Below, piece after piece: positions 39,998 through 55,935 of a DNA stretch of 64,000 nt. The DNA is taken from positions 1-64,000 of the forward strand of contig NZ_JAJUWT010000013.1 of the NCBI RefSeq assembly GCF_021390395.1, written 5' to 3'. The stretch comes from Saccharothrix sp. S26. Lineage in GTDB: Bacteria; Actinomycetota; Actinomycetes; Mycobacteriales; Pseudonocardiaceae. Position 1 is the first letter of the stretch. Every line of letters starts with the position of its first letter. A model generated the notes under the pieces. That model ran no database searches and was not told where the DNA came from. It saw only the letters and a program-made list of their open reading frames with translations. Position numbers and translations under genes: made by a program.

Positions 39998-41316
39998 CCC
40001 AGGGTCCTTTCAGGTGACGGCGTCTCGTCGGGCACCGCGTCGGGCAGGTCGTCCACGGTCCGCAGCCGGGGCCGCGACCAGGCGCAGGCCGCCAGCACGA
40101 GCATGAGCACGCCGACGACCAGGAAGATCAGGGCGATGCCGCGGCCCTCGCCGACGCCGATCAGCGCGCCGACGCTGCCGGCCAGCGGACCGCCCGCGGC
40201 CATCAGGGGTTCGGCCACGCCGTCGGTCAGCGGGCCGATCAGGAGGAACGCGACCGGCATCGCGGCGGTGCTCAGCATCCGCACCACCGCCAGCACCCGG
40301 CCCAGCACCGCCGGGTCCACCTTGGTCTGCAACAACGTCACGCAACACGTGTTGATCAACGGCAGGGTGCACAGGAACGCGGGCGCGGCGATGCCGATCA
40401 GCCACGGCGAGGGCGCGAGCGAGTGCAGCACCAGGAACACCCCGCCCAGGGCCAAGCCCAGGTAGATGCCGTGCACCCGGCGCTTCGGCCCGCCCCACAC
40501 GCCCATGACCAGCCCGCCCGCGAACAGCCCGCTGCCACCCGCGGCCATCAGCACGCCCAGCGTCGCGGGGCTGGAGAACGACAGGATCAGCGGCTGCACG
40601 AGCCCGCCCGCGATGGCGAACAGGAAGTTCCACACGCCGAACACCGCGCACAGCGCGAACAGGCCGGGAGCGCCGCGCAGCCACCTCAGCCCCGCGCCGA
40701 TGCCCTCGCGCTCGTCCTTCGAGGCACCCGCGGGCCGCACGGCGTCGTCGGGCAGCCGCGCCAGCAGCAGCGCCCCGACCGCGACCACCATCGACACGAA
40801 GTCGATCAGCAGCACGCCCCGCAACCCCACCAGGCCCAGCAACGCGCCGGCGACCAGCGGCGCGGCGATCTGCACGCCCTGCGTGATCTGCATGAGGCCG
40901 TTGATCCGACCCAGGTGCTCCTTGGGCACCAGCGCCGGCACCAGGGCCGTGTAGGCGATGATGTGGAACGAGTTCAGCGTGGCGGTCAGCGCGGTGGCGA
41001 CGTAGACCTGCCACACCGCCAACGAGCCCGTCGACACCGCCACCAGCAGCAGCGCCGTCACCACGCCCGCGCCGGAGTCCGCGAGCAGCATGATCCGCTT
41101 GCGGTCGTACCGGTCGGCCACCACACCCGCGTACGGCGCGAGCAGGATGCCCGGCACGACCGCGCAGAACTGGATCAGCACGAACGTCGTCACCGACCCC
41201 GTGCCCAGGTACACCCACACGCCCAGCACGAACGCGGTCAGCGCCGAACCGATCACCGACACCAGCTGACCGGCCCACACCACGGCGAACCGGCGCAACC
41301 CCGCCGGGGCGCTCAT
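39994..41316 (-). CDS. MFS exporter of NRPS cluster (EntS-like)
   Basis: 440 residues, twelve TM segments, opening FAVVWAGQLVSVIGSALTAF as in EntS/siderophore-type MFS exporters. Motif A variant is PYAGVVADRYDRKRIMLLAD. It lies between NRPS-3 and NRPS-4 and overlaps both by ATGA, so it is translated together with them and is the likely exporter of the peptide. Confidence 0.9.
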   Translation of the reverse strand: MSAPAGLRRFAVVWAGQLVSVIGSALTAFVLGVWVYLGTGSVTTFVLIQFCAVVPGILLAPYAGVVADRYDRKRIMLLADSGAGVVTALLLVAVSTGSLAVWQVYVATALTATLNSFHIIAYTALVPALVPKEHLGRINGLMQITQGVQIAAPLVAGALLGLVGLRGVLLIDFVSMVVAVGALLLARLPDDAVRPAGASKDEREGIGAGLRWLRGAPGLFALCAVFGVWNFLFAIAGGLVQPLILSFSSPATLGVLMAAGGSGLFAGGLVMGVWGGPKRRVHGIYLGLALGGVFLVLHSLAPSPWLIGIAAPAFLCTLPLINTCCVTLLQTKVDPAVLGRVLAVVRMLSTAAMPVAFLLIGPLTDGVAEPLMAAGGPLAGSVGALIGVGEGRGIALIFLVVGVLMLVLAACAWSRPRLRTVDDLPDAVPDETPSPERTLG

Positions 41317-44300
41317 CGCTGGTCACCGAGCATGGACTCGACCTCCTCGGCCGACATCCCGGCCAGTCGCACGCGCAGTTCGGCCACCGCGGTCACCCGC
41401 TCGGGGTCGTCCAGTGAGAGGAGCGCGGCGGCGACACCGGCGACGGTCGGCGTGGCGAACATGCGGCCGATCGGCACCGACACGCCGAACGCCGCCTGCA
41501 CCCGCGCCAACGCCTTCGCCGCGAGCAGCGAGTGGCCGCCCAGGGTGAAGAAGTCGTCGTGCGCGCCGACTCCCGGCACGCCCAGCACCTCGGCCCAGAT
41601 GCCCGACAGCACCTCCTCCACCGCGTCACGCGGCGGCACCCGTTCGCCGTCGACGTCCCACACCGGCGCGGGCAGCGCCTTGCGGTCGGTCTTGCCGTTG
41701 GGCGTCAACGGGAACGCGTCCAGCACGACCGCCGTGGCGGGCAGCATGTAGTCCGGCAGCCGTTCGGCCAACCGGGCCCGAAGTCGGGGCCACAGCCCGT
41801 CGCGCGGCACGTCCGCCGGCACGACGTAGGCCACGAGCCGCTCGTCGGCGGCCAGCACGACCGCCTCGCGCACCTCGCCGGAGGCCAGCAACGCGGCCTC
41901 GACCTCGCCGAGCTCGATCCGGAACCCGCGCACCTTCACCTGGTGGTCGGTGCGGCCCAGGAACTCCAGCGTGCCGTCCGACCGGTGCCGCACCAGGTCA
42001 CCGGTCGCGTACAACCGCTGACCGGGCTCCTTCGCGAACGGGTCCGGCACGAACCGGCTCGCGGTCAGCCCCGGCCGGTCGTGGTAGCCGCGGGCCACGC
42101 CCGCCCCGCCGATGTGCAGCTCGCCGACCACGCCCGGCGGCACCGGCTCGAGCCCCGGTCCCAGCACGTACAGCCGGGTGTTGCCGATCGGCGGCCCGAG
42201 CACCACGGGCGCGGGGGAGCGCTCGACCAGGCCCGCGGACGACCAGACGGTGGTCTCGGTGGGCCCGTAGGCGTTCCACAGCAGCGCGTCGTCGGTGAGC
42301 AGGTCGTCGGCCAGGTCGCGCGGCAACGCCTCGCCGCCGCAGATCCGGGTCGTCACCCCGGCGGGCACGCCGCCGGCCGCGTGCAGCAACCGCCACGTCG
42401 CCGGGGTGGCCTGCATCGCGGTGACCCCCCGGTCGACCAGCAGCTCCCGCAACGCGACCCCGTCCGCGCTCACCTCCGGCGGCACCACCAGCACCTCCGC
42501 GCCGGCGGTCAGCGGCAGCAGCAGTTCCAGCACCGAGATGTCGAACGACAGCGTCGTCACGGCGGCCAGCCGGTCGGCGTCGGTGAGGGCCAGGAGCCGC
42601 TGGAACGACACCAGCAGGTTCACCACCGCCCGGTGCGGCACCTCGACGCCCTTGGGCGTGCCGGTCGAGCCGGACGTGTAGATGATGTACGCCAGATCCT
42701 CGCCGGAGGCCGGGCACGGCTCGGGCGCGGGCTCGAAGCGGTCGGCGTCGGCGAGGCGCAGCACCGTGCCGCCGAACGGCAGCTCGCGGTCCGCGACCAG
42801 GACGGCCGCACCCGAGTCGGCCAGCATCGCGGCCACCCGGTCGCTCGGCCACCCCGGGTCCAGCGGCACGTACGCCGCGCCCGCCTGCCACACGCCCAGC
42901 ACCGCCGCCACCAGGTCCGGGTCGCGCGGCAGGCACAACGCCACCGCCGACCCCGGCCCCACGCCGTGCGCCCGCAGGAGCGCGGCCACCTGTCCGGCTC
43001 GCGCGCGCAGCTCGGCGTACGACAGCCGCGAGCCCACGCCGGACACCGCCGTGCCGGTCCCGGTGACCAGGTCCAGCGCGGTCCGCGCGGGCGGCAGCTC
43101 CAGATCGGTGGCGTTGAAGCCCTCCAGGACCTCCCACCGCCGCACGCCGGTCAGCCCGTCGAGCTCGCTGATCCGCCGGTCCGGGTGCTCGGCGGCGGCG
43201 AGGAGCAGCGCGATCAACCGGTCGGTGAACTCGGCGATGGTCGACTCGTCGAACAGGTCGGTGTTGTACTCCACGCCGAGGGCGAGAGTGTCGCCCTGCG
43301 GGTCGGCGGCCACCGTCAGGTCGAACTTCGCCACCTTCGGATCGGGCACCAGCGGTGCGACCTCCAGCCCCGCCAGCTCGATGTCCATCGGCGGGGTGTT
43401 GGTGAAGATCAGCTGGGCCTGGTAGATGGGCGCGTGCCCGGTGCTGCGCTGTGGGCTCAGGTGCTCCACCAGCCGCTCGAACGGCAGGTCGGCGTGCGCG
43501 AGACCGGCCGCGGCGACCTGCCGGACCCGGGCCAGCAGCTCGCTGAACGTCGGGTCGCCGCCCACGTGCGCGCGCAACGCGAGCGTGTTGACGAAGAACC
43601 CGATCAGCCCTTCCAGATCCGGGTGCGAGCGACCCGCGACCGGCGTGCCGACCACCACCTCGTCCTGCCCGGCCAACCGGCCGAGCCGGGCCGCGAACCC
43701 GGCCAGCAGCACCATGAACACGGTGGCACCGTGCGCGCGGGCCAGCTCCTCCAACGGCCGGATCGGGACGTAGCCGTACCGCAGCGCGCCCCGGTGGGTG
43801 ACCACGGGCGGTCGCGGTCGGTCCGTCGGCAGGGTCAGCAGCTCCGGCGCGCCCGCGAGGTGCCGCGTCCAGAAGTCCAGGTGCCCGGCGGCCAGGTCGG
43901 CCATCCGGTCCCGCTGCCACACCGCGAAGTCCGGGTACTGCAACGTCAACGCGGGCAGGTCCGGGTCGCGACCCTCCAGGGCCGCGCCGTACGCCTGCCC
44001 CAGCTCGCCCAGCAGCACCGACAGCGACCACGCGTCGGCGATGATGTGGTGCATGTTCAGCACCAGCACTTGGTCGTCGTCGGCGAACCGGCCCAGGCTC
44101 GCCGCGAACAGCGGCCCCCGGTGCAGGTCGAACCCGATGCCGCCGCGTTCGTCGGCGAACCGCTGCGCCCGCGCGTCACGGTCGCCGTCACCCAGCTCGT
44201 GCGTGGTGAGGGTCGCCGTGCCGGTCGGCGCGACGAGCTGCACGGGTTCACCGCCCGAATCGGGGAACGTGGTGCGCAACGACGCGTGCCGGTTCACCAG

Positions 44301-44537
44301 GACGTCCAGCGCGCGCTGCAACGCGGCCCGGTCGACCGGTCCGCGCAGCCGCAACGCGACCGGCACGTTGTAGACGGCGCTGCCGGGCGAGAACTTGTCC
44401 AGGAACCACAGGCGTTGCTGCCCGAACGACAACGGGTAGGCGGTGGGCGTGGCGGCACGGGCGCGCAGCCGTTGTGCCACCAGCTCGCGCTTGCGCGCCG
44501 AGGCCGCCGACGCGCCGGTGTCCCGCAGATCGGTCAT
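41313..44537 (-). CDS. NRPS-3: C-A-PCP
   Basis: 1074 residues. Short helical N-terminal leader, then condensation about 35-450 (HHIIADAWS at 163-171), adenylation about 480-960 (A3 YTSGSTGTPKG near 620, A5 NAYGPTE near 755), PCP with Ser in FFTLGGHSL (about 1003). The C-terminus ends in MSAEEVESMLGDQR, a short docking-like helix. Manual pocket reading is about D-I-L-Q-I-G-A-V-W-K, close to the known glycine code DILQLGLIWK, so glycine is the best guess. No epimerase domain. It overlaps neighbours on both sides by 4 bases. Confidence 0.93.
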   Translation of the reverse strand: MTDLRDTGASAASARKRELVAQRLRARAATPTAYPLSFGQQRLWFLDKFSPGSAVYNVPVALRLRGPVDRAALQRALDVLVNRHASLRTTFPDSGGEPVQLVAPTGTATLTTHELGDGDRDARAQRFADERGGIGFDLHRGPLFAASLGRFADDDQVLVLNMHHIIADAWSLSVLLGELGQAYGAALEGRDPDLPALTLQYPDFAVWQRDRMADLAAGHLDFWTRHLAGAPELLTLPTDRPRPPVVTHRGALRYGYVPIRPLEELARAHGATVFMVLLAGFAARLGRLAGQDEVVVGTPVAGRSHPDLEGLIGFFVNTLALRAHVGGDPTFSELLARVRQVAAAGLAHADLPFERLVEHLSPQRSTGHAPIYQAQLIFTNTPPMDIELAGLEVAPLVPDPKVAKFDLTVAADPQGDTLALGVEYNTDLFDESTIAEFTDRLIALLLAAAEHPDRRISELDGLTGVRRWEVLEGFNATDLELPPARTALDLVTGTGTAVSGVGSRLSYAELRARAGQVAALLRAHGVGPGSAVALCLPRDPDLVAAVLGVWQAGAAYVPLDPGWPSDRVAAMLADSGAAVLVADRELPFGGTVLRLADADRFEPAPEPCPASGEDLAYIIYTSGSTGTPKGVEVPHRAVVNLLVSFQRLLALTDADRLAAVTTLSFDISVLELLLPLTAGAEVLVVPPEVSADGVALRELLVDRGVTAMQATPATWRLLHAAGGVPAGVTTRICGGEALPRDLADDLLTDDALLWNAYGPTETTVWSSAGLVERSPAPVVLGPPIGNTRLYVLGPGLEPVPPGVVGELHIGGAGVARGYHDRPGLTASRFVPDPFAKEPGQRLYATGDLVRHRSDGTLEFLGRTDHQVKVRGFRIELGEVEAALLASGEVREAVVLAADERLVAYVVPADVPRDGLWPRLRARLAERLPDYMLPATAVVLDAFPLTPNGKTDRKALPAPVWDVDGERVPPRDAVEEVLSGIWAEVLGVPGVGAHDDFFTLGGHSLLAAKALARVQAAFGVSVPIGRMFATPTVAGVAAALLSLDDPERVTAVAELRVRLAGMSAEEVESMLGDQR

Positions 44538-45211
44538 GACGTGCTCCCGGACCTGGTCAGCCGGTCCGCGGCGGCCCGCACGTGCTCACGCAGGTGCGTG
44601 GGCACGCGGTCGCCGAACCGTTGCAGGTAGGCGGCCACGGTGGTGTCGTCGTCCCGCAGGAACGGGAAGTCCGTGGGCACCATGTGCCGGATCGCCAGCA
44701 GCGGCACGGGACTGTGCAGCGGGCGGAACAGCGGGTTCCACAGGCCCGCCTTCTGCGGCGGGCCGGGGTGGAACTCGCCCAGCATCAGCCCGTCGCGGGT
44801 GTACTGCGGCTTGAGCAGTTGCTGCGCCCGGTCCACCACGCCGAACTCGGTCAGGTCCGGGAACAGGATCACGATGGTCTTGAACTGCGCGCCCGGCCCC
44901 TTCCTCGGCTCCAGCTCGGCGAACCAGTCGCGGTAGTGCAGCAGCAGCGCGGCCAGCTCGTCGGGGTCCTGCGGTGCGCCGGCGTGCACGGACAGGTAGA
45001 ACAGACCGCGTTGCAAGGACGTGTCGGTGAACGGGCACACCGCGCCCCTCCGCCCCAGGTCCGGGTGCGGTCCGCACAGGTACTCACCGGCCCACTCGAA
45101 CACGGTCCTCAGCGCGGGTTCGTGCGCCGCGACCGCGTCGGGCAGCCGAGGCGCGGCGAAGTCCGCCGGCTCGACCAGGGGGTGGGCCTGGTGGGTCGGA
45201 TGGATCAACAT
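44534..45211 (-). CDS. DUF6875-like protein of unknown function in NRPS operon
   Basis: 225 residues from ATG 45211 (TGATG with the previous stop; GGTGGAG lies upstream). Conserved-looking parts: CPFTDTSLQRGLFYLSVHAG, FKTIVILFPDLTEFGVVDRA, LLKPQYTRDGLMLGEFHPG, and FRPLHSPVPLLAIRHMVPTD. From memory this matches the DUF6875 family seen in actinobacterial biosynthetic clusters, with no known activity. A CP..(x)..R and many conserved His/Asp residues suggest a fold with catalytic potential, but I assign no reaction. Its place inside the operon between the monooxygenase and NRPS-3 argues for a direct role in assembly or tailoring. Confidence 0.62.
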   Translation of the reverse strand: MLIHPTHQAHPLVEPADFAAPRLPDAVAAHEPALRTVFEWAGEYLCGPHPDLGRRGAVCPFTDTSLQRGLFYLSVHAGAPQDPDELAALLLHYRDWFAELEPRKGPGAQFKTIVILFPDLTEFGVVDRAQQLLKPQYTRDGLMLGEFHPGPPQKAGLWNPLFRPLHSPVPLLAIRHMVPTDFPFLRDDDTTVAAYLQRFGDRVPTHLREHVRAAADRLTRSGSTS

Positions 45212-46548
45212 CAACTCCACCTGCCTTTGTTCCGGGACCGGCGGGCCAGGCCCGCCAGCGCCGCACCGGCCACCGCGGCCGTGACGCCGCCGAGCACGCG
45301 GTCCTGCCGCCGTGCCCGGGTCAACGCCTCGCCGTAGGGGACCGTGGTGTGCGTGATCAGGGTGTAGAGCGGCACCCACGCGTTCGGGAAGAGCCGGTGC
45401 AGCGCCAGGTCCACCTTCTTGCGGGCGGTGAACAGCGGCGAGCGCACCTTGTCGCGCAGCTCCACGAAGTTGCGCTTGGACAGCTCGGCCAGCACGTCGG
45501 TGTGCGGTCGGCGCGACCTCTCGAACAGCGCCAACGCGCCGGGCAGGTCGTGCGGGTGCGCGGCCAGCGAGCGGTCGAGCACCGAGCAGTCCTCGAACGC
45601 GGCGTTCATGCCCTGCCCGAAGAACGGGTACACGGCGTGCGCGGCGTCGCCGATGAGCACGATCCCGCGGCCTTCCCCGGCCGTGACGTGCCACGGGGCC
45701 GTGCGCACGGTGACCAGGCTCGCGGGCGGGTGCGCCAGGAACTGCTCGACGAGGTCAGGGATGAGCGTGAGCGTGTCGGGGAACCGGTGGGCGAAGAACG
45801 ACCGCACCCGCTCGGGCTCGGTCAGCCCGGCGAACCCCCGGTCGCCGTCGAACGGCAGGAACACGGTCGCGGTGAGCGAGCCGTCCACGTTCGGGTGCGC
45901 CACGATCAGCCCGTCGTCACCCGGCCACACGTGCAGCGCCCGCGGCTCGGTGCGCGGCTCGCCGTCGTCGCCGGTCGGGATCAGCAGCTCCTTGTAGCCC
46001 CACTCCAGGAACTCCTGGTGCAGGTCCATCCGCAGGCCGCGGCCCAACTGCGCGCGCACCGCGGAGAACGCGCCGTCCGCGCCGACGACCAGGTCGGCCG
46101 TGCGCACGGTCCCGTCGTCGGTGGTGACGGCCGGTTCGACCCGGTCGACGGCGGTCACCCGGCAACCCCAGGAGAAGCCGACGCCGAGCCGTTCGGCCTC
46201 GTCCACCAGCGCGACGTTGAGGTCGTGCCGCAGCACGGAGTGCAGGATCTGGTCCTCGGCCACCCCGTAGGGCTGGAAGCGCAGCGTGCCGTCCGGCAGG
46301 TGCACGGCTCGGCCGCGCATCGGCACGGTCAGCGGCGCCAACCGCTCCAGCAGGCCGATCTCGCGCAGCGCCACGATCCCGCGCTGCGACAGGCCGAGGT
46401 TGATCGACCGGCCCTCCTCGCGCACGCCCGGCGCCCGCGGGTCGCCCCGCCGTTCGAGCACCTCCACGTCGAACCCGCGCCGCGCCAGGTAGACCGCGGT
46501 CAACGAGCCGGCCAGCCCCGCGCCGACGACGAGCGCCTCGCGGGTCAT
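45211..46548 (-). CDS. FAD-dependent monooxygenase, kynurenine 3-monooxygenase type
   Basis: 445 residues. N-terminal FAD Rossmann motif ALVVGAGLAGSLTAVYLARR. KMO-type signatures: GRSINLGLSQRGIVALREIG, PYGVAEDQILHSVLRHDLN, EFLEWGYKELLIP, and the late FAD motif IVLIGDAAHAVYPFFGQGMN then AAFEDCSVLD. C-terminal hydrophobic tail segment (VTAAVAGAALAGLA) as in membrane-associated KMO. It would hydroxylate kynurenine or a related aryl group with NADPH and oxygen. No tryptophan dioxygenase or kynureninase gene is in the window. It overlaps NRPS-2 by ATGA, so it probably makes or modifies a building block of this peptide. Confidence 0.9.
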   Translation of the reverse strand: MTREALVVGAGLAGSLTAVYLARRGFDVEVLERRGDPRAPGVREEGRSINLGLSQRGIVALREIGLLERLAPLTVPMRGRAVHLPDGTLRFQPYGVAEDQILHSVLRHDLNVALVDEAERLGVGFSWGCRVTAVDRVEPAVTTDDGTVRTADLVVGADGAFSAVRAQLGRGLRMDLHQEFLEWGYKELLIPTGDDGEPRTEPRALHVWPGDDGLIVAHPNVDGSLTATVFLPFDGDRGFAGLTEPERVRSFFAHRFPDTLTLIPDLVEQFLAHPPASLVTVRTAPWHVTAGEGRGIVLIGDAAHAVYPFFGQGMNAAFEDCSVLDRSLAAHPHDLPGALALFERSRRPHTDVLAELSKRNFVELRDKVRSPLFTARKKVDLALHRLFPNAWVPLYTLITHTTVPYGEALTRARRQDRVLGGVTAAVAGAALAGLARRSRNKGRWS

Positions 46549-49500
46549 GCCTCGTCCTCGTCGGCCAGCGTGCCGAGCAGCCGGTCGATCTCCTCGTCGG
46601 ACAGCTCGTCCAGCTGGTCGAGCAACGGCACCGGTCCCCGGCCGACAGCGGTCGTGCCGCGGTCGAGGTTCGCGCACAGCTCCGCGATGGTCGGCGCGGC
46701 GAACAACGTCGCCAACGGCAGGTCGACGTCCAGCGCGACGCGGACGCGGGCCAGCATCTGGGTCGCGGTCAGCGAGTGGCCGCCCAGGGCGAAGAAGTTG
46801 TCGTGCACGCCCAGCGGCGCGTCCGCCGCCATGCTCAGCACTTCACGCCAGATCTGCGCCAACCGCCGTTCGGTGTCGTCGCGCGGCTCGACGCGCTCGA
46901 CGTCGTCGGTCGTCCACACCGGGTCGGGCAGCGCGTCCCGGTCGATCTTGCCGGTGCCGGTGCGCGGCAACTCCGGCAGCACGACGATCGCCGCCGGCAG
47001 CATGTAGTCGGGCAGGCTCGCGGCCAGGTGCGGCCGCACCCGCCGGCGCAGCTCCTCCTCGCCGACACCGGTGTCGGCGGGCACCGCGTACGCCACCAGC
47101 CGCACGTCGGCGGCGTGCGCCGACCAGGCGACGACGACGGCGTGCGCCACGTCCGGGTGGGCGCGCAGCACGGCCTCGATCTCGCCCGGCTCGATCCGGT
47201 AGCCGCGCACCTTGAGCTGCCGGTCGGCGCGGCCCAGGAACTCCAGCTTGCCGTCGGCGTGGCGCCGGACCAGGTCGCCGGAGGCGTAGAGCCGCCCGCC
47301 GGGCGGCCCGAACGGGTCGGGCCGGAACCGCTCCGCGGTCAGGTCGGGCTGCCCGTGGTAGCCGCGGGCCACGCCCGCGCCGCCGATGTGCAGCTCGCCG
47401 ATCACGCCCGGCGGCACGGGCCGCATCAACGGGTCCAGCACGTGCAGCGAGGTGCCCTTGACCGCCGGGCCGAGCCGCACGGGTTCCGGCGCGGGCGAGA
47501 CCACGCCGGCCGCCGAGTACACCGTGGTCTCGGTCGGCCCGTAGCCGTCGATCAGGGTGGCCCCGTCGGTCTGGAGGTCGTCGGCCAGGTCGCGGGTCAT
47601 CGCCTCGCCGCCGCTGATCCGCAGCCGCACCCGCGCGGGCACGCCGCCCGCCGCGACGATCATCCGCCAGCTCGCCGGACCGCCCTGCACGACCGTGGCC
47701 CGCGTTTGCTCGATCCGCGCCCTGAGCACAGCGCCGTCGGCCACGTCGTCCGCCGGGATCACCACGAGCGTCGCACCGCTGATGAGCGGGGCCAGCATCT
47801 CCACGGTGGACACGTCGAACGCGGGCGTGGTGATGGAGGCGAGCCGGTCGTCCGGCGTCAGCTCCATCAGCTCGCCCATCGCGCGCAACAACGCCGCCAG
47901 CCCGCCCTGGGTGCACCGCACGCCCTTCGGCTTGCCGGTCGACCCCGAGGTGTGGATGACGTAGGCCAGCGCCCCGGGGTGCTGCGGCGCGGCCGGGGGA
48001 GGCGTGTCCGGACGGGCGTCGAGGTCGGCGGTGTCCAGGTCGACCTCGGTCCACGGCCCGGTCAACGGTCCCGTGACCGCCCGCGAGGCACCGTCGGTGA
48101 CCAGCACCGGCACGTCCGACCCCGCGGCCATGGCGGCGAGCCGGGCCGGTGGCCACGACGGGTCCAGCGGCAGGTAGCCCGCGCCGGCGCGCCACGCGGC
48201 CAGGATGCCGACCACCATCGGCGCGCCCCGGTCCAAGCACAGCGCCACCGGCTGGTCCGGCCGCACGCCCGCCTCCAGCAGCACGTGCGCCAGGCGGTTC
48301 GCCGCCCGGTCCAGCTCGCCGCACGTCAACGCGCCCTCGATCGCGACCGCGTCCGGGTGCCGCGCCAACGCGGCGAACACCAGGTCCGCGGCGGTCTCGG
48401 CGGGCACCTCGACGGCGGGCTCCTGCGGCGCGTGGTCACCCAGCCACAGCTCGGCCACCCGGTCGGCGGGGGAGGCGTGCACGGCGGCGGCGAACACCCC
48501 GTGCAGCGCGGCGATCGTCTCCGGCGTGAACAGCTCCGAGTCGTACTGCCAGCGCGCGAACCACCGCTCACCCGCCCGTTCGACGGTCAGCGACAGGTCG
48601 AACTTCGCCCCGCCGTTGGCCACCGCCTCGGGCCTGATCGTGACCGGACCGGCCGTCCGCGCGGGCGGCACCGGCTCGACCGCGAACATCACCTGCACCA
48701 GCGGCGCGTGCGCCAGGGTCCGCTGCGGCGCGGCGATGTCCACCAGCCGCTCGAACGGCAGGTCCTGGTGCGCGAGCGCGGCCACGGTCGCCTCCTCGGC
48801 CGCCGCGACCACCTCGCCGAACGTGGTGTCCGGCGCGAACCTCGCCCGCAACGGCAGGGTGTTGGCCACGAAGCCGACCAGGCCCTCGGTCTCCGGCCTG
48901 GTGCGCGCCGCGACCGGCGTGGCCACCAGGAAGTCCGCCTGCCCGGTCACCCGGTGCAGCACGCACTGGAACACCGCCAGCAACCGCGCGAACGACCCGT
49001 CCGGCACGTCCAGCCCGGCCCGCAGCTCCGCGCCCCGGCCGGTCGGCGCCGCCGGTCGGGCCCGGTCCGTCGGCAGGGACAGCACGGTCGGCACGCCGCG
49101 CAGCGCCTCCCGCCAGTACTCGGCGTCGCCGTCGAACGCGCCGCCCTCGGCCTGCTCCCGTTGCCACACCGCGTAGTCGGGGTACTGCACCGGCAGGTCG
49201 GGCAGCCCGTGCGGCACGCCGGCGACCTCGGCCGCGTACAGCCGGGCCAGCTCGTCGAACAGCACCGCGCACGACCAGCCGTCGGCGATCGCGTGGTGCA
49301 GCACGAGGACGAGCACGTGCTCGTCCGGCCCGACCTCCACCAGGCCCGCGCGCAGCAACGGCCCGCCGTCCAGCGCGAACGGGCGGCCCACCTCCTCGCG
49401 CACCACCGCGTCCACGTCACCCGACAGGCGCGCCAGCGGCACGGTCAACGCCGCCGACACCACCTGCACCGGCACGCCGTCCTCGGCCGCGAACCGCGTC

Positions 49501-49703
49501 CGCAGCGCCTCGTGCCGGGCGACCAGCGCGTTCAGCGCCACCCGCAACGCCTCGACGTCCAGCGGACCGTCGAGACCGACCCGCCAGCCGATGTTGTAGA
49601 CCGGGCTCGCGGGCAGCAGCTGGTCGACCAACCACAGCCTGCGCTGCCCGGACGAGGCCGGGAACCGGAACACCTCGTCCTCTTCTGGTATCACCGCGCT
49701 CAC
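46545..49703 (-). CDS. NRPS-2: C-A-PCP
   Basis: 1052 residues from GTG 49703, overlapping the NRPS-1 stop as GTGA. Condensation about 10-430 (HHAIADGWS at 136), adenylation about 440-930 (A3 HTSGSTGKPKG near 584, with His for the usual Tyr, A5 DGYGPTE near 719, A10 Lys in TGTGKIDRD), PCP with Ser in FFALGGHSL (about 977). C-terminal acidic helix LDELSDEEIDRLL is a likely docking element. Manual pocket reading is about D-V-V-Q-I-G-G-V-Y-K, not assignable from memory. No epimerase. Overlaps the KMO-like gene by ATGA. Confidence 0.93.
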   Translation of the reverse strand: MSAVIPEEDEVFRFPASSGQRRLWLVDQLLPASPVYNIGWRVGLDGPLDVEALRVALNALVARHEALRTRFAAEDGVPVQVVSAALTVPLARLSGDVDAVVREEVGRPFALDGGPLLRAGLVEVGPDEHVLVLVLHHAIADGWSCAVLFDELARLYAAEVAGVPHGLPDLPVQYPDYAVWQREQAEGGAFDGDAEYWREALRGVPTVLSLPTDRARPAAPTGRGAELRAGLDVPDGSFARLLAVFQCVLHRVTGQADFLVATPVAARTRPETEGLVGFVANTLPLRARFAPDTTFGEVVAAAEEATVAALAHQDLPFERLVDIAAPQRTLAHAPLVQVMFAVEPVPPARTAGPVTIRPEAVANGGAKFDLSLTVERAGERWFARWQYDSELFTPETIAALHGVFAAAVHASPADRVAELWLGDHAPQEPAVEVPAETAADLVFAALARHPDAVAIEGALTCGELDRAANRLAHVLLEAGVRPDQPVALCLDRGAPMVVGILAAWRAGAGYLPLDPSWPPARLAAMAAGSDVPVLVTDGASRAVTGPLTGPWTEVDLDTADLDARPDTPPPAAPQHPGALAYVIHTSGSTGKPKGVRCTQGGLAALLRAMGELMELTPDDRLASITTPAFDVSTVEMLAPLISGATLVVIPADDVADGAVLRARIEQTRATVVQGGPASWRMIVAAGGVPARVRLRISGGEAMTRDLADDLQTDGATLIDGYGPTETTVYSAAGVVSPAPEPVRLGPAVKGTSLHVLDPLMRPVPPGVIGELHIGGAGVARGYHGQPDLTAERFRPDPFGPPGGRLYASGDLVRRHADGKLEFLGRADRQLKVRGYRIEPGEIEAVLRAHPDVAHAVVVAWSAHAADVRLVAYAVPADTGVGEEELRRRVRPHLAASLPDYMLPAAIVVLPELPRTGTGKIDRDALPDPVWTTDDVERVEPRDDTERRLAQIWREVLSMAADAPLGVHDNFFALGGHSLTATQMLARVRVALDVDLPLATLFAAPTIAELCANLDRGTTAVGRGPVPLLDQLDELSDEEIDRLLGTLADEDEA

Positions 49704-52700
49704 CGCGGTCCCTCCCCCCTCAGACCGACACCCTGCGGCCAACCCCTCCGGTCGACCGCCACCACCCGGAACTCCGCCGTGTGCCGAGCGCCCGCGGCGT
49801 CGGTCAACCACAGCTGGTCCGGACCGGGCAGCATCTCGCCCACGCCCAGCGGGGCGTCCGGCTTCTCGCGGTCCAGCGCGCGCACCGCGTGCGCGAACAG
49901 CTCGACCGACGGCTGGCTCTCCAGGTCCACGTAGAACGGCTTGTGCTCCACCGGGCTCTTCACGAACACGAACCTCGGCATGCCGTGCTCCCGCCGCCAC
50001 GCCTGCGCCCGCAGGAAGCGGGTCCGCTCGTCCGGGGCGAACGCGAACGCCGACCTCGCGGCGGGTAATCGCCAGCCCTCCCTGGCGACGACCAGCCGGT
50101 CCAGGCTGACCCGGGGCGTGTGCTCGCCCGCGGGCAGCAACCGGAAGTGCTGCACCAACTGCGCCATGACCTGCTCGTTGAGCAGCTCGACCAGGTCGAC
50201 GTCCACCCGGCCGTCCCGGCTGCGCGCCACCAGCCGCCCGTCGCTCTCGGTCACCTCGCACGCCCCGACCGGCACCGCGTCGCGCAACCCCGGCCCGCAC
50301 GCGTCGTGGCCGAACACGATCTTCAGGTCGTCCGGCGAGACGAGCGCGTCGGCGAGCCGTTGCGGCGTGCCGCCCTCCTCGCGCGTGGTGGCCAGCACGA
50401 CCCGCGGTCCGGCCATGTCGTGCCGCATCGCCGCCCGGAGCTGGTCCGGGTCGGGGTGCTGGGACACGAACAACGCCGCGCGCATGGTGTTCACGCCGGG
50501 GTGGACCTCGCCCAGCACCCACCGGTAGTCGCCCGCGCGGATCGCGTCCTCGTCCCGGGCCGCGATGAGGACGTCCGGGCTGTGCTGGACGGCTCCTCGC
50601 CAGCCGGGGCGGGGCGCGGCGAACGCCTTGAGCACGGCGTCCCGCACGTCGGCCACCCGGTAGTGGGCCTCACGGCCGTCCGGCGCGTGCCCGAGGGCCT
50701 TGGCCCAGCGGTCCTGCAAGGTCCGCACGAGCCGGCCGATCAGCCGCTCGTCGAGGCGGAAGATCGTGTCGTTGGCCCACAGCCAGAAGTCGGCCAGCCG
50801 CACCCGGTCCGAGCCGGTGGCCGCGACCCGCTCCCGGTACACCTCGCGCAGCGCGCGCCCGTACAGCGCCGAACCGGCGAAGGTGAACCACCGTGCGGCT
50901 TCCAGCACCAGTGACAAGGGCGTCCACAGCGTCTCCACCAACGCGGGGGAGAGGGTGACGTCGAGGTCGCGCCGGCACTCCTCGTGGACGACCGTGCGGC
51001 CCGCGTAGAACAGCCCCGGCCGGCGCACGGCCGCCGTGCCCGTGATGGCGGTGAACTTCTCGTGCAGCGCGCCGATCGCGTGCACCAGCCGGTCCGGGTC
51101 GCCCACGGCGGCGGCGACGTCGTCACGCCCGCGCTCGATCTCGCGCAGCGCCCGTTCGGCCCCGGCGCGGGCGTCCGGGTCGCCGATGGCCGTGATCTGC
51201 TCGCGCAGCGCCGTTTCCGGCACCAACGCCTCCGGCGGCACCTCCAACGTCCACGCGATCCGCTTGGCCTGCCGCAGCCGTTCGAGGGTGGCCAGCACGT
51301 CGTCGACGGGCCGGTCGAGGTCGCGGGCGATCTCGGGCGCGCGGCGCAGCCCGTCGCAGGCGGCGAGCACGGCCGCGTCCGCCGCGGGCAGCCGCACCGG
51401 GTCGGTCATCGGCACGTGCAGGGTGTCGCCCACGACCTCCACGAACGGCATCCGCCTGGGCACCGCCCACGGCCGCACGGCGTCGGTGGTCAACGCCTCG
51501 GCCAACTGCTGGACGGCCCAGTTCTCCAGGTAGGTGGTGCGCGAGGCGATCAGGTCCGGTCCCGGTCGCGCGGTGATCGCGGCGGGCGCGTCGTCGGCGA
51601 CCCTGGCCCAGCCGACCGGCCCGAAGTAGCCGATCGTGTCGTTCTTCGCGCAGTACCGCTGGAGGTAGCTGACGACGGTGTGCTCCCAGCGGCGGTAGTC
51701 GACGTTGCGCGAGGTGGGCCGGTCGCCGGACAACGCCTGGTGCAACGCGTCCACGGCGGTCTGGAGGGCGCGCGGGTTCTGCCACGCCACCGCTTCGCGG
51801 AACTTCGCGTCGCCGCTGACCACGCGCAACACCTCGGCGGCGGCCGTGCGACCCGCCTCGAACCGCGTGCCGTACTCGGCGAGCGACCGCTCGTGCCGTG
51901 CGGCGGCTTCGGCGGCCGTCGCCAACGCCCGGTCGACTTCGTCGTCGGACGTCGTCGAGTGGACCGGTCGCGGACCCACGACCAGCACGGCCGCCGATCC
52001 GCCGTCGGGGTCGGGCGCGGTCCTGACTGGCGTCGCATCGGGGTCGGCCGCGACCAGGACCGCGGGCGGACCGGGGTCCGGGATGGGCAGCGCGACCGTC
52101 ACCGGGTCCGGCGGCGCGAGCGCGGCCAGGGCGGCGCGGGCCTCGGCGAACCGCCCCTTGCGCACCAGCCTCCCGATCCGCCGCAACGCCGACCGGCGCT
52201 CGCCGCTGGAGGCGTCCTCCACCTCGCGCAGCACCCGGAACGCCGCCCACCGCGCCTGGCTCACCTCGTCCTCGGCCGCGAGCACCGCCTCCGCGGCCCG
52301 CGCCGCGTCCGGGCTCGCCACGGCCAGCAGCGGCTCGACGCCGAAGCCCGTGCCGCGCAGCTCCACCCACCGCCACGCCGCCCAGTGACCCGCGCCGGGC
52401 AGCACCAGGTGGTCGGCGACCGGCCGGGCGGACGTGCGCTGCGCGGGCACCAGGTACGCCGACCGGTCCCGCCGCGTGATCGGCGCACGACCCGTCGACG
52501 ACCCCGCCGCCGCGTCCACCACCGCCGCGCACGCGGCCAGCGTCCGAGCCCGGTGCAGGTCGGCGACCGGCACCTCGACCCCGAACTCCTCCCGCACCCG
52601 GAACGCCAGCCGCACCGCGAGCAGCGAGTTGCCGCCGACGGCGAAGAAGTCGTCCTCCGCGAACACCTCCGGCGCGTCCAGCAGGTGCTCCCACAGCGCG

Positions 52701-55576
52701 GCCAGCCGCCGTTGCGTGGGGGTCGACGGTCGGGTCCGGTCCGTGCCCCGCGCGCCCGGGGCACGGACCGACCTCAGCGCCGCCCGGTCCACCTTGCCGC
52801 TGCGGTTGAGCGGCAGCTCCGGCAGCGGCACGTACCGCGCCGGGCAGAGGTAGGCGGGCAGCCGTTCCGCGACGTGCGCGCGCACGTCGTCGACCTCCAA
52901 CGAACCACTCGGCACGACGAACGCCACCAAGTGCCTGGCGTCGTCCTCGCCGAACGGCAGCACGGCCGCCGCCGCGACCGCCGGGTGGTCCCGCAACACC
53001 GCCTCGACCTCGGCCGGCTCCACCAGGAACCCGCGCACCTTGACCTGCCGGTCCGCGCGCCCCAGGAACTCCAGCACGCCGTCCGGGCGCCACCGGGCCA
53101 GGTCACCCGTCCGGTACAGGCGAGCGCCGGGCACACCGCCGAACGGGTCCGGCACGAACTTCGCCGCGGTCAGCGCCGGCGCGCCCCAGTACCCGCGCGC
53201 CAGCCCGTCCCCGCCGGTGTACAGCTCGCCGGTCACGCCGACCGGCACCGGCCGCATCGACTCGTCCAGCACGTACACCGCGGTTCGCTGGACCGGCCTG
53301 CCGATCGGCACGGTCGCGCCCACGTCGGCGGCCGACCGCACGACGTGGCACGTGGTGAACGTGGTGTTCTCCGTCGGCCCGTACCCGTTGACCACGGGCT
53401 TGCCGCCGCGTGCCGCCAACGCCGCGCGCACCGCGTCCGGCGCCAGCACGTCGCCGCCGGCCAGCAGCTGCTCCACGTCCGCGAGGACCGCCGGGTCGAG
53501 CTGGTGGAACAGCCCGGCCGTCAGCCACAGCACGCTCACCCGGTGCGCGCGCAGCAGCTCGGCGAGCACCGCCGGGTCGAGCGGGCCGTCCGGCGCGGCC
53601 ACCACGCGACCGCCGGTCAGCAGCGCGCCCCACACCTCCAGCGTGGTGAGGTCGAAGGCGGTCGCGGACAGGTGCAGGAACGTCTGACCGGGCCCGAACC
53701 GGCCGAAGTTGGGCCGCGTGACCAGCCGGACCACGCCCCGGTGGGGCACGGCCACGCCTTTCGGCGTGCCGGTCGACCCGGACGTGTAATTGACGTAGGC
53801 CACGCTTAATGGATGCGCGGGGACCGCCGGAGATACCGGCGACTGCTCCGAAAGGTCGCACTCCGGCAGCACCACGGACGCCACGCCGTCGGGCAGCGCG
53901 CGTTGCCGGTCGGACACCACGAGGGGCGTGCCCGACTCGCGCAACGCCAGCGCGTCCCGTGCGGCGGGGTTCGCCGGGTCCAGCGGCAGGTAGGCCGCGC
54001 CGGTCTTGAGCACGGCGAGCATCGCGGTCACGAAGTCCGCGCCGCGCGGCAGCGACAACGCCACCGGCAGGTCGATCCGCGCGCCCCTGGCCAGCAGGAG
54101 GTGCGCCAACCTGTTCGACCGCTCGTCCAGCTCGGCGTAGGACAGCCACCGCGTGCCGTCGAACACCGCGTCCGCGTCCGGCCGCGTCCGGACCTGCTCG
54201 GCGAACAGGTCGGGCACGGTCGCGTCGGCCGGGAAGTCGGTGGCGGTGTCGTTCCACCCGTGCAGCACCCGGGTGAGGTCGCGCGGCCCGCCCAGCTCGC
54301 GCACCGGCCGGTCCGGCGCCTGCGCCAGGCCCGCCAGCAGGTCGCGGACCTGCGCCAGCACGGCGTCCGCCGCCCAGTCCGGGAACCGGCCGGTGTCGTG
54401 GATGAGCTGGAAGCTCAGGCGCGGCTCGGCGAACGCGTACAAGGTCATGGCGTAACCGGGGGTGCGCAGGATGCGGACCCGCCTGCCCGGCGGCGCGGAC
54501 GGCCGGGCGGCCAGCACCGTGCCGAGCTCCCGGTGCTCGAACAGCACCAGGCTGCGCATCAGCGGCACGTCGTGCCCGGACGCGCGCTGGATCACCGGCA
54601 ACGGGCACAGCTGGTGGTCGCGTGCCCGCACGGACCGCTCCCGCACCGACCGCAGCCAGTCGGCCACCGACGCGTCCCGGTCCACCGGCACCCGCAGCGG
54701 CACGGTCGCCAGCAGCAGGCCCACCATCTCCTGCGCGCCCTCGACGGTGCCGTGCCGCGCCGCCCTGGTCACGCCGAACACGGCCTCGTCGGCGTGCGCG
54801 TGCGTGGTGAGCAGCAAGCCCCACGCGGCCAGGACCACCGTGTTGACGGTGACGCCCGCCCGCGCGGCCAACGCCCGCACCGCCTCGGTCTCGGCCTCGG
54901 ACAGCTCCACCGCGGCCGTGGCCATGACCGGCGTGTCCGGCCCGGCGTGCTCCAGCGGCAGGGGACCGGGCTCGGCCGAGCCCGCGAGCTCCGCCGCCCA
55001 GAACCGCTCGTCGGCCTGGCGTTCGGGGTGGTCGGGCGCGGTCCGCGCGTCGTGCCACCGCGCGTAGTCGGCGAAGTCCGGCCGCGGCGCGAAGTCCAGC
55101 GCGCCGCCCGTGAGCCGGGCCGCGTAGTCGTCGTCGATCTCGGCCAGCAGCATCGCCAGCGAGCGGCCGTCGAGGATCGCGTGGTGGAACGTCGCCACCA
55201 CGACGTCGCCGGGCAGCGCCACGACCCGCAGCGCCGGCCCGGACACCGGGTCGACGCCGGTGCGCCGGTCGGCCGCCAGGAACGCGTCGAGGTCGGTCAC
55301 CGAGTCGTCCACCAGCAGCGGGACGTCGTCGGCCGACCCCGGCCACTGGTCCATGCCGCCGTCCGCGCGCCAGGCGAACCGCGCCCGCAGCACCGGGTGC
55401 CGTTCGACGGCGGCCCGCCACGCGGCCAGGTACGCGGCGGTGTCCAGGCCGTGCGGCCAGTGCTGCACGCACTGGATGACGTCCGTCCCGGCCGACGGGT
55501 CGCGCAACCCGGCCGCGATCATTCCGCTCTGCAACGGCAGCGCGGGCGCGAGCGGCAGCGCAGAATCCGTGTGCAC
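49700..55576 (-). CDS. NRPS-1: C-A-PCP fused to full LanB-like lantibiotic dehydratase domain
   Basis: 1958 residues from GTG 55576, with GGGGAGG at 55583-55589; the longer frame to 55777 is rejected. Condensation about 5-440 (HHAILDGRS at 131-139), adenylation about 455-945 (A3 YTSGSTGTPKG near 597, A5 NGYGPTE near 730, A10 Lys in NRSGKVDRA), PCP with Ser in FFAVGGNSL (about 984). From about 1055 to the end (about 900 residues) the sequence is LanB-type: LVLPGAGHWAAWRWVELRG, RYCAKNDTIGYFGP (1307), and RFVFVKSPVEHKPFYVDL near the end. This matches the Glu-tRNA-dependent N-terminal domain of class I lanthipeptide dehydratases and PEARLs; the SpaB-type elimination domain is absent. Pocket reading about D-L-L-W-L-G-G-T-F-K is close to a known Val code. 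Contains one TTA codon (Leu590). Confidence 0.92.
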   Translation of the reverse strand: MHTDSALPLAPALPLQSGMIAAGLRDPSAGTDVIQCVQHWPHGLDTAAYLAAWRAAVERHPVLRARFAWRADGGMDQWPGSADDVPLLVDDSVTDLDAFLAADRRTGVDPVSGPALRVVALPGDVVVATFHHAILDGRSLAMLLAEIDDDYAARLTGGALDFAPRPDFADYARWHDARTAPDHPERQADERFWAAELAGSAEPGPLPLEHAGPDTPVMATAAVELSEAETEAVRALAARAGVTVNTVVLAAWGLLLTTHAHADEAVFGVTRAARHGTVEGAQEMVGLLLATVPLRVPVDRDASVADWLRSVRERSVRARDHQLCPLPVIQRASGHDVPLMRSLVLFEHRELGTVLAARPSAPPGRRVRILRTPGYAMTLYAFAEPRLSFQLIHDTGRFPDWAADAVLAQVRDLLAGLAQAPDRPVRELGGPRDLTRVLHGWNDTATDFPADATVPDLFAEQVRTRPDADAVFDGTRWLSYAELDERSNRLAHLLLARGARIDLPVALSLPRGADFVTAMLAVLKTGAAYLPLDPANPAARDALALRESGTPLVVSDRQRALPDGVASVVLPECDLSEQSPVSPAVPAHPLSVAYVNYTSGSTGTPKGVAVPHRGVVRLVTRPNFGRFGPGQTFLHLSATAFDLTTLEVWGALLTGGRVVAAPDGPLDPAVLAELLRAHRVSVLWLTAGLFHQLDPAVLADVEQLLAGGDVLAPDAVRAALAARGGKPVVNGYGPTENTTFTTCHVVRSAADVGATVPIGRPVQRTAVYVLDESMRPVPVGVTGELYTGGDGLARGYWGAPALTAAKFVPDPFGGVPGARLYRTGDLARWRPDGVLEFLGRADRQVKVRGFLVEPAEVEAVLRDHPAVAAAAVLPFGEDDARHLVAFVVPSGSLEVDDVRAHVAERLPAYLCPARYVPLPELPLNRSGKVDRAALRSVRAPGARGTDRTRPSTPTQRRLAALWEHLLDAPEVFAEDDFFAVGGNSLLAVRLAFRVREEFGVEVPVADLHRARTLAACAAVVDAAAGSSTGRAPITRRDRSAYLVPAQRTSARPVADHLVLPGAGHWAAWRWVELRGTGFGVEPLLAVASPDAARAAEAVLAAEDEVSQARWAAFRVLREVEDASSGERRSALRRIGRLVRKGRFAEARAALAALAPPDPVTVALPIPDPGPPAVLVAADPDATPVRTAPDPDGGSAAVLVVGPRPVHSTTSDDEVDRALATAAEAAARHERSLAEYGTRFEAGRTAAAEVLRVVSGDAKFREAVAWQNPRALQTAVDALHQALSGDRPTSRNVDYRRWEHTVVSYLQRYCAKNDTIGYFGPVGWARVADDAPAAITARPGPDLIASRTTYLENWAVQQLAEALTTDAVRPWAVPRRMPFVEVVGDTLHVPMTDPVRLPAADAAVLAACDGLRRAPEIARDLDRPVDDVLATLERLRQAKRIAWTLEVPPEALVPETALREQITAIGDPDARAGAERALREIERGRDDVAAAVGDPDRLVHAIGALHEKFTAITGTAAVRRPGLFYAGRTVVHEECRRDLDVTLSPALVETLWTPLSLVLEAARWFTFAGSALYGRALREVYRERVAATGSDRVRLADFWLWANDTIFRLDERLIGRLVRTLQDRWAKALGHAPDGREAHYRVADVRDAVLKAFAAPRPGWRGAVQHSPDVLIAARDEDAIRAGDYRWVLGEVHPGVNTMRAALFVSQHPDPDQLRAAMRHDMAGPRVVLATTREEGGTPQRLADALVSPDDLKIVFGHDACGPGLRDAVPVGACEVTESDGRLVARSRDGRVDVDLVELLNEQVMAQLVQHFRLLPAGEHTPRVSLDRLVVAREGWRLPAARSAFAFAPDERTRFLRAQAWRREHGMPRFVFVKSPVEHKPFYVDLESQPSVELFAHAVRALDREKPDAPLGVGEMLPGPDQLWLTDAAGARHTAEFRVVAVDRRGWPQGVGLRGEGPR
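53807..53809 (-). promoter_or_regulatory. TTA (bldA-dependent) codon in NRPS-1
   Basis: Leu590 (in AHPLSVAYVNYTSG, just before A3) is encoded by TTA on the coding strand. In actinomycetes TTA is read only by the bldA tRNA, so translation of NRPS-1 and the coupled genes behind it may wait for bldA. Confidence 0.75.
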
Positions 55577-55719
55577 CAAAAACCTCCCCGACGAATGTGT
55601 TTCGGGCGCGCACGACCGAACCGGCCGCCGGGAAATTCCCGGTGACCTTTTCCGGACAGGGTTGACCGCCTTTTGGCGCGGACGTGCGGTAAAGCGCGGG
55701 TGCGCGCTGGGGCGGAGCG

Positions 55720-55935
55720 TCAGCCGCGGTGCGCGGCGAGGTGCTCGCGGACGCTGCGCGGGCGCATGTCCGTCCACGCCCGGTCAATGTGGGCCAGGCA
55801 GTCTTCCCTGGTGCCACGAGTGCCCTCGGCCCGCCACCCCGGCGGGAGGTCCCGGTCGGCGAACCAGACCGAGTACTGCTCCTCGTCGTTCACCACGACG
55901 AGGAATTCGTGGTAATTCGTGGTGCCGTCAGTCAT
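55720..55935 (-). CDS. mbtH-like: MbtH-like protein, NRPS chaperone
   Basis: 71 residues from ATG 55935 with GGAGAT upstream. It shows the MbtH signature NDEEQYSVWFADRDLPPGW; most family members have SxWP, here the Pro is Phe. MbtH proteins bind the adenylation domains and are often needed for their activity. It is the first gene of the NRPS operon; 143 bases separate its stop from the NRPS-1 start, the only sizeable gap in the operon. Confidence 0.92.
   Translation of the reverse strand: MTDGTTNYHEFLVVVNDEEQYSVWFADRDLPPGWRAEGTRGTREDCLAHIDRAWTDMRPRSVREHLAAHRG

Follow-up and report, generated by a model that had tools for sequence, protein, structure and literature searches.

According to the published accounts, LanBs need no ATP to glutamylate Ser/Thr residues in ribosomal peptides (PMC11962472), and the chemistry of PEARL-type aminoacyl-tRNA ligases requires a free carboxylate that is phosphorylated by ATP (PMC11962472, PMC11117183). 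Among the described systems that come close to the locus reported here is SnaE, the PEARL of the threopeptin (sna) NRPS-PKS cluster of Stackebrandtia nassauensis, whose carboxylate is supplied by ureido chain reversal; the same report leaves undecided whether SnaE takes a carrier-bound or a free substrate (PMC11212132). It also states that fusions of lantibiotic dehydratases to a thiolation domain exist in NRPS/PKS clusters, and that about two thousand such clusters are said to encode an annotated lantibiotic dehydratase, one having been worked out (PMC11212132). Also, the livipeptin tRUE, an L/F transferase, is reported to occur fused to NRPS-like proteins (PMC10548850). In the open-licence literature, as far as it was available to us, we found no characterised example of a PEARL fused to an NRPS.

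Our study concerns a stretch of 64,000 nucleotides from Saccharothrix sp. S26 (contig NZ_JAJUWT010000013.1, positions 1 to 64,000), hereafter the window. An earlier note, made from the sequence alone, had described a single frame at 49700-55576 in which C-A-PCP is followed by about 900 LanB-like residues, leaving the strand unstated. We found this frame, named here NRPS1, on the minus strand; the plus strand of the same interval contains stops. Its longest open frame is 49700-55777 (2025 aa) and its likely start is a GTG at 55576, the boundary already given by the note, with GGGGAGG just before it; the product would have 1958 aa. The domain order was confirmed by Pfam on the 2025-aa translation: a Condensation domain at residues 78-496 (54290-55546, minus strand as are all features below; 156.5 bits; motif FHHAILDG), an adenylation domain at residues 525-995 (52793-54205; AMP-binding 525-864 with 256 bits and AMP-binding_C 923-995) and a thiolation (carrier) domain at residues 1024-1085 (52523-52708; PP-binding; motif GGNSLL). 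The LanB/PEARL-type domain goes from WAAWRW to the last codon (49703-52384). On it, the Lant_dehydr_N search that the note had proposed gave a significant result (PF04738, matching in three stretches with 82.2 bits, where the cut-off is 28), and a six-frame PF04738 search of the genome placed two stretches of the NRPS1 frame above the cut-off. The core motifs of the C, A and T domains are intact (HHAILDG, YTSGSTGTPKG, NGYGPTE, FFAVGGNSL), and the LanB-like part carries WRWVELRGTGF, RYCAKNDTIGYFGP and FVFVKSPVEHKPFYVDL, the three motifs quoted beforehand. In agreement with the note, the elimination domain PF14028 is not among the 6 Pfam families found on the NRPS1 translation. It is absent too from all 17 window proteins scanned, while the same library finds it beside a split LanB of the same genome.

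The fusion might have come from misassembly, a concern that the note itself had raised. A close match (at least 73% identity) was found in 17 of the 25 same-genus genomes listed, own included, and eight of these 17 genomes are one contig each. In 16 of the 17, the open frame holding the match is 1889 aa long or longer, the exception being one genome (G296) with a frame of 1074 aa. These long-frame orthologs speak against misassembly, which is very unlikely and was set aside; the C-A-T plus LanB-type fusion is real and conserved. The nearest named loci of NRPS1 are from Saccharothrix as well.

The AlphaFold model of the LanB/PEARL domain is a confident one, with a mean pLDDT of 89.3 and a pTM of 0.87, and its overlay on solved structures, also proposed at the outset, matches the LanB fold. 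TbtB is the best Foldseek match (6ec8, E 9e-24). Every one of the 11 matches that reach E <= 0.001 is a LanB-type enzyme, including TbtB, MibB, GodF, MadB and NisB, with which the domain has its fold in common, and a profile search against PDB sequences again leads to TbtB (E 7e-18). The predicted structure thus supports a LanB glutamylation fold without elimination domain. Within this fold, we used as PEARL criteria the published residue lists (PMC11117183, PMC11962472), with TglB and BhaBCTrp compared by position and spacing outside our alignment. As reported, TglB has an ATP-GRASP-like site made of Asp542, Glu801, Arg803 and a conserved His, and its Glu564 is non-essential (PMC11117183); the adenine-pocket Arg and Phe of PEARLs are common to TbtB (Arg743, Phe783), which is described with Tyr and Leu at the places of the PEARL Asp and Arg (PMC11117183, PMC11962472).

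Our alignment has 44 rows, that is, 54 named loci minus 5 below the length cut and 6 more left out, plus the window. In domain numbering, the putative ATP-GRASP-like residues D631, E653 and H655 lie in HSPD...LGEVH (50501-50584) and are present in 44/44, 43/44 (one Asp) and 44/44 rows, E653 being the counterpart of TglB Glu564; the D631-to-E653 spacing of 22 is that of Asp542 to Glu564. E898-x-R900 in AEFRVV (49760-49777) corresponds to TglB Glu801-x-Arg803, both residues being found in all 42 rows where they are present. The adenine-contact candidates R795, in VVAREGW (50072-50092), and F834, in FVFVKS (49955-49972), were assigned by alignment and profile match and occur in 43 of 43 rows each; they match the adenine-pocket Arg/Phe, which LanBs also have, hence they are not diagnostic. 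In the fused rows these seven residues are all found in 16/16, and eleven mapped positions are invariant in the same 16. The latter speaks against the domain being a docking scaffold devoid of catalysis, an idea that has nothing in its favour beyond the absence of an identified substrate and that we find hardly credible.

A less clear picture emerged for the remaining mapped positions. R37 falls by position on the carboxylate-side Arg (TglB Arg10, BhaBCTrp Arg34) and is found in all 40 rows reaching there; it is also present in the seven PEARL-like proteins and in the own-genome LanB used as controls below, and so is not diagnostic. For BhaBCTrp, Arg197, Gln201, Tyr205, Arg208 and Arg429 have been proposed at the tRNA 3'-end. 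The putative contact place in NRPS1 is the LQRYCAKND helix (51638-51664; R270, Y271, K274), where, mapping by position, K274 falls on Arg208, and Arg197 and Gln201 have no counterpart by spacing. Y271 would be Tyr205, yet this position is Leu or Val in 7/7 PEARL-like proteins, which makes the match doubtful.

The LanB fold itself leaves room for another reading, in which the domain would glutamylate a Ser or Thr held on the carrier and lead to a dehydroamino acid, since the solved matches are glutamyl-tRNA-dependent LanBs. For this comparison, 15 of the 44 rows were aligned with seven PEARL-like proteins from Kitasatospora and with the split LanB encoded by the window's own genome, next to a frame that matches PF14028 (26.0 bits, cut-off 24.4). 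D631, H655, R795, E898 and R900 were each found in 7/7 PEARL-like proteins; the other two positions account for four substitutions in all, E653 being kept in 5/7, with Asp in one protein and Arg in another, and F834 in 5/7, with Tyr in the remaining two. The split LanB, in contrast, has Arg at E653, Tyr at H655 and a gap at E898, and its score with the family profile is 46 bits, far below the 321 to 153 bits of the PEARL-like proteins. In the same alignment, which is of low identity, it shows Asp at D631 and Arg at R900, so that neither position is clearly different there. In a profile-profile alignment of 51 PEARL-side rows against 15 LanBs of the split-LanB type, the split LanB shows Gly, adjacent to a Tyr, at D631; E653 is again Arg in it, H655 again Tyr and E898 again opposite a gap, and Arg is retained at R900. 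As D631 and R900 are poorly separated by our own LanB control, the contrast at both rests on the published comparison. The differences at E653, H655 and E898, together with the lack of an elimination domain among the scanned window proteins, make glutamylation highly improbable, and a LanB glutamylase identity was set aside. Of the two options that the earlier note had named, the PEARL-like one is thus supported as the better fit, in line with the arrangement it had proposed, and the residue-level case for PEARL chemistry may be called good but not closed.

The control proteins deserve a comment of their own. The seven PEARL-like proteins come from a plasmid of Kitasatospora sp. NBC_00039 (L103:17656-41529), in a pearlin-type cluster; three are annotated as lantibiotic dehydratase and four as hypothetical, and of two that were scanned one gave PF04738 and one no Pfam match. 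Judging from its NAD(P)H-dependent oxidoreductase, TldD-type proteases and FAD oxidoreductase, the cluster looks like the pyrroloiminoquinone pearlin type. The genome of the window also encodes LanBs elsewhere (L001 and L002, on contigs C26 and C9): one in a 1058-aa frame (PF04738, 715 bits) and the split LanB with its adjoining PF14028 frame.

NRPS1 is followed by six genes of the same strand. NRPS2 (46545-49703; C-A-T, 1052 aa) has a GTG start that overlaps the NRPS1 end by four bases. Next come a kynurenine 3-monooxygenase-like FAD monooxygenase (45211-46548; PDB sequence search 1.6e-78) and a DUF6875 protein of 225 aa (44534-45211; the listed ORF from 45694 begins too early), and then NRPS3 (41313-44537; C-A-T), an MFS exporter (39994-41316) and NRPS4 (35591-39997; C-A-T plus a terminal reductase, NAD_binding_4). 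All were assigned by Pfam, with a reading of the start site for the first three. Consecutive genes of the seven overlap by four bases, and by one base in the case of the monooxygenase and DUF6875 genes. We took the cluster as 35591-55576, NRPS4 lying beyond the region covered in most relative loci. Matches of NRPS3, the monooxygenase and the DUF6875 protein adjoin the fused gene in Actinophytocola (L047), Salinispora (L044) and Micromonospora echinofusca (L045), and are absent from the examined parts of L046 and L049-L051. On the other side of NRPS1, GH43, AbfB, APH, SDR and PLP genes have close matches only in some Saccharothrix loci, an SDR match at 31% in Actinophytocola being the one addition. 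Published work describes members of DUF6875 as tryptophan-oxidising heme proteins (PMC13307353). The protein of the operon gave no PDB sequence match; its presence with the monooxygenase suggests that both act on a tryptophan-derived residue (oxidised tryptophan or kynurenine).

All four NRPS proteins start with a C domain. None of their motifs (FHHAILDG, LHHAIADG, MHHIIADA, AHHIVCDD) has the ureido signature EHHXXHDG, so we discarded the possibility that one of the operon's C domains carries out ureido chain reversal. Searched against PDB sequences, the NRPS1 C domain comes closest to McyB, PvdL and bacitracin synthase 3. Its donor was not found: 197 genomes of the class gave, the window aside, only matches of 34-35% in two genomes. 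No common starter route was seen near other fused proteins among the 20 proteins scanned, which are 18 neighbours (L044, L046, L047, L049, L050, L051, L054) and two from a Streptomyces plasmid (L089). The upstream genes encode an acid ligase and MbtH in L046, an enolase-type enzyme in L050, and argB/argC-like amino-acid-kinase and semialdehyde-dehydrogenase proteins in L051. When the A-domain pocket of NRPS1 was read by hand in GrsA numbering, the first residue looked Val-like; this was not used as evidence. We left it aside because, for SnaA, none of three predictors is reported to have named the right residue (PMC11212132).

We think it somewhat probable that, in NRPS1, an assembly-line module is joined to a PEARL-type aminoacyl-tRNA ligase working on its carrier domain (T1), which would extend the T1-tethered intermediate at a free carboxylate. 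The A domain would load an amino acid onto T1 and the C domain, judging from the domain order, would acylate this residue with a donor. The PEARL domain would then use ATP to phosphorylate a free carboxylate of the tethered intermediate; the activated carboxylate would be joined to the amino group of an aminoacyl-tRNA, the tRNA ester being hydrolysed afterwards, and the chain would be longer by one residue, on the side opposite to that where the NRPS extends it. Its thioester end may move on through NRPS2, NRPS3 and NRPS4, whose terminal reductase would free an aldehyde or alcohol, and along the way the KMO-like and DUF6875 enzymes probably oxidise their residue.

In a PCP-bound residue the carboxyl is tied up as a thioester, so the tethered intermediate must offer a second carboxylate that is free. 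The interpretation of the earlier note stood in its LanB fold without elimination domain and its PEARL-like character, and was less well borne out in taking the PCP-bound residue as the substrate of tRNA chemistry, since such a residue does not on its own account for the reaction. With no Curea motif in the operon, we propose that the first C domain's donor brings in the carboxylate, or that it arrives in some other way, and this is the weakest step. A bolder version, which we regard as rather doubtful, is that one polypeptide grows one carrier-tethered chain both ways, the backward direction by ATP/aminoacyl-tRNA ligation on a carboxylate supplied without ureido reversal, for example that of a dicarboxylic starter brought in by an unusual first C domain.

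In a PacB-like alternative, the amino group of the residue on T1 would receive an aminoacyl group from tRNA without ATP, a transfer that would replace or supplement the C domain. The acceptor of PacB is carrier-bound, a PCP-bound amine is an obvious acceptor, and PacB and the livipeptin L/F transferase provide tRNA-dependent aminoacylation in NRPS pathways. However, the reported PEARL ATP residues are invariant or nearly so and such a transfer would leave the ATP site unexplained, the module already contains a C domain whose motif is intact, and the PacB fold differs; we consider this route quite improbable.

Returning to ligation on the carrier, the distribution of the family bears on where the domain may act. 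A T-PEARL or longer fusion occurs in 17 of the 54 named loci (L035-L051), of which L048 is cut by a contig end and L036 has C-A in another frame. In the tree, the 16 fused rows group as a single clade (support 100/99) that spans Pseudonocardiaceae, Micromonosporaceae and Streptosporangiaceae; the same fusion, for which the note had proposed a search, occurs in other actinobacteria. Of the aligned relatives, 28/44 are free-standing, which, along with the SnaE timing that is left open in print as on-line or off-line (PMC11212132), would suit a PEARL domain active on a later or released intermediate, the fusion to T1 setting only stoichiometry and location. We hold this to be unlikely: the fused form has been retained as one clade across several families, and reductive release in the operon would leave no C-terminal carboxylate. 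Moreover, 12/54 loci have a free PEARL-type frame placed after one in which T is the last domain detected (L052, L053, L069-L071, L074-L077, L079, L087 and L088; the T matches are weak in the first two, and the free gene of L088 is broken over frames), which suggests a role near the carrier. An A or T domain frame is at hand in 44/54 loci.

Concerning the source of the carboxylate in such an on-carrier ligation, the ureido motif EHHXXHDG was seen in only two of the 54 loci, L051 and L054, and not in the other 52, within flanks of 10 kb or less. HHA(I/L/V)LDGRS is found in the fused frame of the window and of 13 other named loci, and in L036, L045 and L048 the PEARL frame is without a C motif. 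The Micromonospora wenchangensis protein (L051:4676-12091 of NZ_MZMV01000004.1) falls inside the fused clade and is one frame of A-T-Curea-A-T-PEARL with the C motif EHHFVHDG, as if parts like SnaA and SnaE were joined in a single chain. Outside actinobacteria, a Parvularcula MAG (L054:9626-16838) has a free PEARL-type frame, and the frame adjacent to it holds A, T and the Curea motif EHHAIHDG. In Saccharothrix luteola (L036, 6391-12745), C-A and T-PEARL lie in two overlapping frames, by frameshift or natural split.

Family matches are rarer farther away, with the caveat that the E limits differ between searches: 59 of 297 family genomes have a match at E <= 1e-20, own included, and among genomes of the class 10 of 394 have one at E <= 1e-40, counting that of the window. 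A plasmid search gave 16 records, and the three regions opened all have free-standing genes. Plasmid p1 of Streptomyces fungicidicus (L089:13550-22379) carries a compact set of two genes with a lantibiotic dehydratase annotation, lone adenylation and carrier proteins, a PLP enzyme, MbtH and a PPTase, perhaps a carrier-protein-based pearlin-like pathway.

With module and ligase in one chain, both the on-carrier question and the carboxylate question become addressable by mass spectrometry on one purified protein, and NRPS1 lets one ask directly if both modes of making peptide bonds serve one tethered molecule. If on-carrier action proves true, tRNA-charged amino acids would become building blocks for assembly-line engineering.

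The earlier note knew of no described example, a claim that does not hold, as SnaE and the thiolation-domain fusions (PMC11212132), PacB (PMC12945691) and livipeptin (PMC10548850) are already in print. Like PacB of pacidamycin (PMC12945691) and the livipeptin tRUE (PMC10548850), NRPS1 would bring aminoacyl-tRNA-dependent bond formation into an NRPS pathway. Their GNAT/Fem and L/F transferase folds, however, are unrelated to the NRPS1 domain, and an ATP-activated carboxylate is not among the features described for them in these reports (PMC12945691, PMC10548850). With the RiPP PEARLs TglB, BhaBCTrp and AmmB1 the domain has in common, by position and spacing, the ATP-GRASP residues and the adenine-pocket Arg/Phe; those enzymes are described as free-standing and acting on the C-terminus of a ribosomal scaffold peptide (PMC11117183, PMC11962472), whereas the NRPS1 domain is fused. 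SnaE, compared here by its published description, is likewise a PEARL-type LanB relative without elimination domain in an NRPS pathway and adds an amino acid opposite to the NRPS direction; unlike the NRPS1 domain, which is fused to C-A-T in an operon lacking the Curea motif, it acts downstream of a Curea domain, and its gene is separate from those of the NRPS (PMC11212132). For the thiolation-domain fusions, the published account states their existence (PMC11212132), and for NRPS1 we provide the module, the operon and a residue analysis. The novelty of NRPS1 lies in the fusion to a whole module, within an operon of seven genes that lacks the ureido-forming C domain from which SnaE obtains its carboxylate.
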